Shown: one piece after another, positions 39,062-41,735 of the stretch
Position numbering within the stretch: position 1 is the first letter of the stretch
Layout: each line of letters opens with the position of its first letter
From: Bacteroidales bacterium
GTDB lineage: Bacteria; Bacteroidota; Bacteroidia; Bacteroidales; UBA932
DNA length: 49,438 bases
Assembly: GCA_017626355.1 (NCBI GenBank)
Contig: JAGAIY010000009.1
Span: forward strand, 1-49,438
Reading direction: 5' to 3'
The notes under the pieces: model-generated
Database searches by the model: none
Seen by the model: the letters and a program-made list of their open reading frames with translations, nothing else
Told to the model about the DNA's origin: nothing
Position numbers and translations under genes: made by a program

Positions 39062-40960
39062 ATGCATAAACTATTGAAGAATATCCTCGCCGTCTGTCTG
39101 CTCTTATGTGCAGGCATGCTCGAGCTTCATGCCCAGTACGACAAGGATGTCTTCTACATGCGTGGACGACGTGCCCTTGCTGACGGGAAATATGCTCAGG
39201 CCATAGAGAATTTCAACATACTCTCGCAGCTCGACACCACCGACCACTGGACCTTCTTCTTCAGGGGAATCGCTAAGTACAACCTCGGAGACCTCAGGGG
39301 AGCTAAGAAGGATTTCGACAGGTCGGTACGCATCAATCCGGTCTTCACTTCCGGTTACCATTACAGAGGCATCACTGAGAGCCGTTTCGGAAACTACGAT
39401 GCAGCCCTTGCCGACCTTCAGCATGCGATAGATCTGCGTCCCGGTGAAATAGGTCTTTATTTCAGCCGCGGAGTGACCTATTTCCTTTCCCGGCAGTTCG
39501 AGAATGCCGTGTCGGATTTCGACAGGTACATAAGGAAGGAACCGAAAGACCCTTCGGCCTTTCTGAACAGGGGAGCGAGCCATCTGTTCCTCGGTGATAC
39601 CCTCAAGGCTCTGAATGACTACAACAAGGCCATCAAGCTGGACCGCTTCGATCCCGAAGGCTATGTCAGAAGGGGCCGTGTATATGCCTCGCTCAAGGAT
39701 TATGACAAGGCCGTCGCGGATATGGACAGGGCTATCGAACTGGATACGGCAAATACATTCGCCTACTTCAACAGGGCGATAATGCATTATGAGCAGCAGC
39801 GTTACCATGAAGCTATGGACGACCTGAACCGTGTCCTGAAAGAGGAGCCGGGAAATGCTCTTACGCTTTATAACCGAGGACTGATCAGCGCCCAGCTCGG
39901 CGCATATGACGAGGCTCTGAACGATCTGGACAGAGTGCTGAACATCAATCCGGAAAATGTCCTGGCCTACTTCAACAGGGCTTCGGTCTTCATTGAAATG
40001 GGAATGTACGAGAACGCCCTTGAGGATTACGACAAGGCCATAGAACTGTATCCAGACTTTGCCAAGGCCTATATGAACAGGTCATATGTCAAGAACCTGA
40101 TGGGAGACTTCAAGGCTTCGAAGAAGGATTATGACACGGCGCAGCAGAAGGTCAGGGAGTATCGTGAGAGGAACAGGACGGATGTAGGATCGTTCGCGGA
40201 TACGACAAAGAAGTACAGCGCCCTTCTTTCACTTGATGCCGAATTTGCAAAGAAGGATTTCAACGACGAACTCCTGCAGCACAGGGATATAGACATAAGA
40301 CTCAGACCTCTGTACAAATTTACAGTCACAGGGGTGAAGGATGATACCAACTATGCCCTCGAGCACAAGTTCGAGAATCCTCTCATTGCAAGATTCAAGG
40401 CCGGGCTGCCTGTGGGTGCGGATGTCACGAACTCTGAAGTCCAGCTTTCTCCGGAGATGGCCGGAAAGCTTGAAGAGGCTGCATGGACGGGTACAGGGGA
40501 GCCTTCTGCAGAACAGTTCTTCCTGAGGGCCTTGAACGATTATGATGCGAAACAGTTCAACTCTTCGCTCGACTATTATGGCAAGGCTATCGAAGCGGCT
40601 CGACAGAAGGGGGATTTCTCCAGGTATTACGAAGCATTCTATCGCATGAACCGCGGCGTGCTTCGTGCCGAGATGATCGACTTCATCGCTTCGATCCAGA
40701 GCAATGTGCAGGTGCTTTCGATGGATGATACCGGAAATACGAGAGCGCGTGTGAAAGACCAGATAACAAGGCAGTATGACTATACGGACGCAATCGAAGA
40801 CCTCAAGGAGGCCTCTGAAATACTGAAGGATATACCGTATGTCTACTATAACCTCGGCAACCTGTACTGTCTGTCGGCCGAGCATATAAATTCGATAGAC
40901 AATTATACGAAGGCCATAGAGCTTTATCCTTATATGGGTGACGCCTATTTCAACAGATGA
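39062..40960 (+). CDS. Exported TPR protein, interrupted by in-frame TGA
   Basis: 632 residues up to the TGA at 40958. It has a signal peptide (MHKLLKNILAVCLLLCAGMLELHAQ) followed by about ten tetratricopeptide repeats in the first 330 residues (for example AFLNRGASHLFLGDTLKALNDYNKAIKLD, LAYFNRASVFIEMGMYENALEDYDKAIEL). A linker with FKFT-type strands comes next, then further TPRs after residue 475. The last visible words, YMGDAYFNR, stop one codon before the Gly expected in a TPR (YFNRG). The same frame continues after the TGA for 40 more codons that complete the repeat and end at 41083. The product is likely periplasmic or outer-membrane-associated. It may be a recent nonsense mutation, a sequence error or programmed readthrough. 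Confidence 0.85.
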   Translation: MHKLLKNILAVCLLLCAGMLELHAQYDKDVFYMRGRRALADGKYAQAIENFNILSQLDTTDHWTFFFRGIAKYNLGDLRGAKKDFDRSVRINPVFTSGYHYRGITESRFGNYDAALADLQHAIDLRPGEIGLYFSRGVTYFLSRQFENAVSDFDRYIRKEPKDPSAFLNRGASHLFLGDTLKALNDYNKAIKLDRFDPEGYVRRGRVYASLKDYDKAVADMDRAIELDTANTFAYFNRAIMHYEQQRYHEAMDDLNRVLKEEPGNALTLYNRGLISAQLGAYDEALNDLDRVLNINPENVLAYFNRASVFIEMGMYENALEDYDKAIELYPDFAKAYMNRSYVKNLMGDFKASKKDYDTAQQKVREYRERNRTDVGSFADTTKKYSALLSLDAEFAKKDFNDELLQHRDIDIRLRPLYKFTVTGVKDDTNYALEHKFENPLIARFKAGLPVGADVTNSEVQLSPEMAGKLEEAAWTGTGEPSAEQFFLRALNDYDAKQFNSSLDYYGKAIEAARQKGDFSRYYEAFYRMNRGVLRAEMIDFIASIQSNVQVLSMDDTGNTRARVKDQITRQYDYTDAIEDLKEASEILKDIPYVYYNLGNLYCLSAEHINSIDNYTKAIELYPYMGDAYFNR

Positions 40961-41083
40961 CTTGTCCTGATCTACCTGAAGGACAAGGAGAAGGGATGCA
41001 TAGACTTGTCGCGTGCCGGAGAGCTTGGAGTGCAGGATGCCTATGGCGTGATCAAAAAGTATTGTGAAGATGAAAACGAATAA
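40961..41083 (+). other. In-frame continuation of the TPR gene after the TGA
   Basis: Forty sense codons and a TAA follow the TGA in the same frame and read LVLIYLKDKEKGC, then IDLSRAGELGVQDAYGVIKKYC, which look like the end of a TPR/Sel1-like domain. CTTGTCCT (40961-40968) and AGGACAAG (40980-40987) form a perfect 8-bp inverted repeat starting at the base after the TGA. The HAD gene ATG (41070) overlaps the TAA region by 14 nt, as expected if the ribosome normally reaches 41083. Confidence 0.75.
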
Positions 41084-41735
41084 GAGAAAAGCTGTAATAT
41101 TTGATATGGGAGGTGTCCTTGTCGACCTTGACATGCAGGGTTGCAAGGATGCTTTCAAGAGGATTCTGGGCTATTCCAGAATAGATGAACTCCTCGATCC
41201 CTGCCATCAGAAAGGCATTATAGGTGATCTGGAAGGGGGAGTGCTTACTGAGGATGAATTCCGTCAGGCTGTTCTTTCTGAGTCGGCCGAGGGATGTGTG
41301 CCGGAAGATGTCGACAAGGCATTCTGGCATATACTTGAGGGCATAGCTCCTTATAAGGCGGAGCTTCTGGTGAAGATGAGCCAGTCATATGACCTTTATC
41401 TGCTGAGCAACAACAACGGCATCACCATGGTCAGGGCATACCAGCTTTTCGAAGAAGCGGGCGCTCCTCTCGACAAGGTGTTCAGGAAGTGTTTCCTTTC
41501 ATATCAGATGAAGGCTCTCAAGCCATCAGAGACCTTCTACAAGGCAGTTGTCGAACAGATCGGACTTCCTTCCGACATGCTGCTTTTCATAGATGATTCC
41601 ATGCCGAATGTGGAAGGTTCCATTGCTGCCGGTCTTCCTGCAGTACACTATATTCCCGGTTCCGATCTTTCAGCCTTGCTTGCAGAGGCTCTCGGGGATC
41701 CGTCTTTAAGGATGGAGGGGACAGCAGATGCTTAA
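41070..41735 (+). CDS. HAD family hydrolase (HAD-IA)
   Basis: 221 residues starting MKTNKRKAVIFDMGGV. The nucleophile Asp12 is in IFDMGG; the second Asp of a DxD motif is Gly, as usual in the YihX/epoxide-hydrolase N-domain group. Motif II is LLSNNN, motif III Lys is in KALKPSETFYKAV, and motif IV is FIDDS. It is probably a cytoplasmic phosphatase for small phosphorylated metabolites; the substrate is unknown. A GTG at 41064 could also start it, but ATG 41070 is likelier. It overlaps the end of the readthrough TPR frame and the MBL gene (8 nt), so three genes are probably cotranslated. Confidence 0.88.
   Translation: MKTNKRKAVIFDMGGVLVDLDMQGCKDAFKRILGYSRIDELLDPCHQKGIIGDLEGGVLTEDEFRQAVLSESAEGCVPEDVDKAFWHILEGIAPYKAELLVKMSQSYDLYLLSNNNGITMVRAYQLFEEAGAPLDKVFRKCFLSYQMKALKPSETFYKAVVEQIGLPSDMLLFIDDSMPNVEGSIAAGLPAVHYIPGSDLSALLAEALGDPSLRMEGTADA

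Follow-up and report, generated by a model that had tools for sequence, protein, structure and literature searches.

A TPR protein gene in the window, which is the whole 49,438-nucleotide stretch of DNA that was analysed, is interrupted by an in-frame TGA 41 codons short of its normal end. The stop is best explained, with a probability of roughly 0.93, as a private TGA in an otherwise intact and conserved gene, which either arose very recently as a nonsense variant in this strain or population or reflects an erroneous consensus base in the metagenome assembly. Between these two, the real young variant is favoured by about 2 to 1 as a matter of judgement. The source genome (G000) is a MAG of 1.70 Mb in 28 contigs that is 73.76% complete and 1.9% contaminated, and it appears to derive from an uncultured gut Bacteroidales organism. 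The interruption is an ordinary finding and gives no support for recoding.

Layout of the interrupted gene

The TPR frame starts at 39062, meets the TGA at 40958-40960 and then continues for 40 sense codons to a TAA at 41081-41083. The features of the region are the following:

39062..40957, + strand: TPR protein gene, 632 codons ahead of the in-frame stop (Pfam TPR_1, E 2.2e-61)
40958..40960, + strand: in-frame TGA, at a site that holds a glycine codon in 109/109 relative loci read
40961..41083, + strand: conserved C-terminal tail of 40 codons with the ancestral TAA, assigned from the relatives' loci and the codon score
40961..40987, + strand: inverted repeat of 8 bp with an 11-nt loop, within the codons of the conserved LVL...KDK peptide and without excess stability
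41070..41735, + strand: HAD-type hydrolase gene further downstream, sharing its first 14 bases with the ancestral end of the TPR gene

The original prediction had reported the TGA with 40 further in-frame codons up to the TAA, a perfect 8-bp inverted repeat behind the stop and a HAD ATG at 41070 that overlaps the extended frame, all of which are confirmed from the sequence. The hydrophobic segment at the N terminus of the TPR protein looks like a signal peptide, as judged by eye. The tail is true coding sequence and no chance open frame, because its codon score reaches +0.50 bits per codon (versus +0.34 in the gene body) and because it is present in all 109 relative loci. The TGA also creates an ATGA stop-start overlap at 40957-40960; read by eye, the alternative frame that begins there is open over about 36 codons, and there is no sign of its being used.

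The codon and the tail in relatives

A glycine codon (GGN) occupies the TGA site in 80/80 relatives from the contig collection and in 29/29 same-genus loci, the latter taken from the best-matching among the 349 other genomes that gave a hit in a search of same-genus genomes. The resulting 109 loci, which include some genomes twice and amount to 84 distinct stretches with the window's own counted in, use GGA 58 times, GGC 26 times, GGT 14 times, and GGG 11 times. Beyond the glycine codon, every locus runs on for 38 to 41 codons with a near-identical peptide. The corresponding protein stretch of a relative was additionally used as the query against 400 same-genus genomes, the source genome included, of which 377 matched. 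Among the best 150 of these 377 matches, a stop falls inside the stretch in five, namely the window's own TGA and four natural gene ends (G032, G136, G266, and G290; G136 and G032 are the loci L084 and L107 of the codon comparison). Since the relatives carry glycine followed by a continuing tail and the other rows with stops reflect natural ends, the sequence comparison indicates that the longer TPR gene ending at 41083 is ancestral and that the TGA is private among the loci read. The marks of a young nonsense variant or of a consensus error are found together: a sense codon in relatives, a stop in this genome alone, and a homologous tail without decay.

These results bear out the expectation of the original prediction that glycine belongs at the codon and that the upstream gene evolved with its end at 41083. 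The orthologue alignment that it proposed, in which glycine in relatives with a nonconserved TGA would point to a mutation, falls on the side of nonsense or error; orthologues ending at the TGA without downstream homology, which it had named as evidence against a longer ancestral gene, were not encountered in any of the 109 loci. Its suggestion of a recent nonsense mutation or an assembly error is supported for the two options jointly.

The tail is strongly conserved at the protein level. All 40 of its residues are the same in L083, the nearest DNA match within the genus, and no amino-acid difference from the window is seen over the 38 to 40 aligned tail codons in 15/109 relatives. In the twelve relatives of highest protein identity, the tail shows 9-23 synonymous and 0-2 nonsynonymous differences. 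The dN to these twelve closest relatives is 0.00-0.02 in the tail versus 0.13-0.15 in the gene body, and the gene-wide dS is at least 1.75 or lies beyond the method. Because the amino acids of the tail are unchanged despite many synonymous differences, the stop is recent, or absent from the organism through a consensus error, or read through at a level that maintains selection on the tail. If the tail were unconstrained, the stop could have existed for no more than about 3-6% of the branch that leads from the split with the nearest relative compared, given an assumed own-branch dS of 1.0-0.5 and about 95 nonsynonymous sites without a change; the lowest tail dS, 0.49 against L084, would loosen this bound to roughly 13%.

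The conservation extends somewhat upstream of the stop, as the region 40925-41080 (the last TPR-like unit and the tail, MGDAYFNR...KKYCE) varies far less among relatives than other parts of the protein do. The case also draws attention to a conserved Bacteroidales TPR protein in which the last 41 residues are far more constant than the remainder.

Explanations for the stop codon

The open frames of relatives cover 11.1 kb of the window with seven genes, the TPR gene included. A sense-frame stop inside a gene is present at 40958 alone and the six other genes are free of one, which rules out a wave of decay for these six; the other stops listed in the neighborhood lie outside genes or in other frames according to coordinate arithmetic. 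A paralogue that supplies the full-length protein was rejected as well, as the single DNA match and all four protein matches in the approximately 74%-complete genome lie within the same gene, and neither the DNA search nor the protein search of that genome found a second copy. The search brought up no further assembly of this species, the best same-genus DNA match being 80%.

In the case of a consensus error, caused by sequencing, mixed strains, or binning, the gene of the organism itself would be intact. This reading is tentatively given the smaller share of the joint probability stated above. It fits a source that is a MAG of the given contig number, completeness, and contamination, a gene that is intact in relatives with a tail free of decay, and the lack of any other broken gene among the six neighbors checked. 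However, there is no direct evidence of a wrong base, and a survey of in-frame stops in bacterial genes (PMC7918605) calls nonsense substitutions relatively common in bacteria. In the case of a real TGA, most translation would end at codon 632, the final TPR-like unit would lose its last part, and the TPR frame would no longer reach into the HAD gene as it normally does. Ordinary leaky decoding of UGA would then yield the full-length protein in at most a minor amount.

Programmed or selected readthrough, in which ribosomes would decode UGA often enough to be useful, aided by the base that follows and by the hairpin behind it, is very unlikely. A tail without amino-acid change is what functional readthrough would also give, TGA is called a leaky stop in PMC7918605 (readthrough level of 6% for one TGA mutant reporter in B. 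subtilis), and the hairpin begins directly after the TGA. The stop codon, however, is not conserved, with TGA in 0/109 relative loci, none of which belongs to the same species. The perfect inverted repeat consists of CTTGTCCT (40961-40968) and AGGACAAG (40980-40987). Its fold has an MFE of -14.8 kcal/mol, whereas shuffled sequences average -13.53 kcal/mol (z -0.50), and 56/200 shuffles are at least as stable. With G-U pairs allowed, 8/8 pairs form in 5 of the 109 relatives, seven in 43, six in 43, five in 17, and four in one, and the relatives that show the pairing have no stop at the site. The fixed codon positions of the LVL...KDK peptide already favor the pairing, so that the repeat needs no function, and the hairpin was rejected as a signal on account of its shuffle-level stability and its occurrence without a stop. 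The originally proposed readthrough aided by the hairpin is therefore not upheld. The TGAC context is ordinary in this genome sample too, because it closes 20 of the 70 frames that end in TGA and are 300 codons or longer (410 kb sample, TPR gene included, antisense frames kept). The notion that the stop has been fixed as a dosage switch, with leaky UGA giving minor full-length and major truncated TPR protein and altering the coupling to the HAD gene, is exceedingly improbable.

Insertion of selenocysteine or reassignment of UGA to glycine or tryptophan has a probability close to nil, even though the UGA stands at a sense position with a hairpin just downstream. In the approximately 74%-complete genome, no tRNA-Sec was found over the curated cut-off (controls over cut-off in 5/14 genomes) and no SelB over its curated cut-off (controls over cut-off in 2/14 genomes), and an ARAGORN scan gave no UCA anticodon among the 32 tRNA matches of this incomplete genome. 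The tRNAs for Lys, Phe, Cys, and Trp are missing from the 32 matches as well; the incompleteness of the genome is therefore evident, and the absence of the machinery is no proof. RF2 is present over its cut-off, and TGA ends 135 of the 333 coding-like segments of a stop-to-stop survey of 410,121 bases, antisense shadows included. Judged by eye, the best 40 of these 333 rows seemingly are mostly same-frame neighboring genes or antisense shadow frames. The survey has little power for tails this short, and other interrupted genes may remain; the TPR tail itself scored 20.1, just under the best 40. A search with Rfam over 40700-41300 gave three matches with E values of 1.1 to 8.4, all under their gathering scores, and an already described RNA element in this place was rejected accordingly. 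As far as a genome of this completeness allows, the earlier doubts about selenocysteine and about a genome-wide recoding of TGA are thus well placed.

Known systems and the downstream HAD gene

In bacterial selenoproteins, UGA is accompanied by a SECIS hairpin close downstream. The UGA of the TPR gene likewise has a hairpin close behind it, but differs in that neither SelB nor tRNA-Sec is found over cut-off, the UGA is unconserved, relatives carry glycine, and the hairpin has shuffle-level stability. Some uncultured bacteria use a code (code 25) in which UGA stands for glycine, and the TPR gene resembles these in having UGA where glycine is expected. Here, in contrast, UGA ends many ordinary genes, RF2 is present, and the tRNA search found no UCA anticodon. 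A UGA-as-glycine code in some uncultured bacteria is mentioned in a passage of PMC10471768.

The TPR gene also resembles the bacterial genes with in-frame stops that are described in PMC7918605 as short-lived and on the time scale of polymorphism. With them the TPR gene shares a single stop, a conserved gene, a coding-like downstream part, and a polymorphism time scale. The survey itself warns that many initial hits may be artefacts and keeps stops found in at least two species as a guard against them; unlike those stops, the one in the TPR gene is private and would fail this filter. One limited targeted search of the literature on this TPR gene gave nothing that stood out among the matches listed. 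The stop matters little in itself, and it illustrates cleanly that a premature in-frame stop in a MAG can pass for recoding until relatives are aligned.

Early termination might affect the coupling to the HAD gene, because the ancestral TPR frame runs into the start of the HAD gene in the window and in relatives too. An ATG overlapping the TPR end is present in at least 75 of the 109 relatives in a crude scan. The overlap of HAD start and TPR stop is thus common in relatives, with -8 (25 loci), -14 (17), and -11 (13) as the commonest offsets in this crude scan (n = 109).
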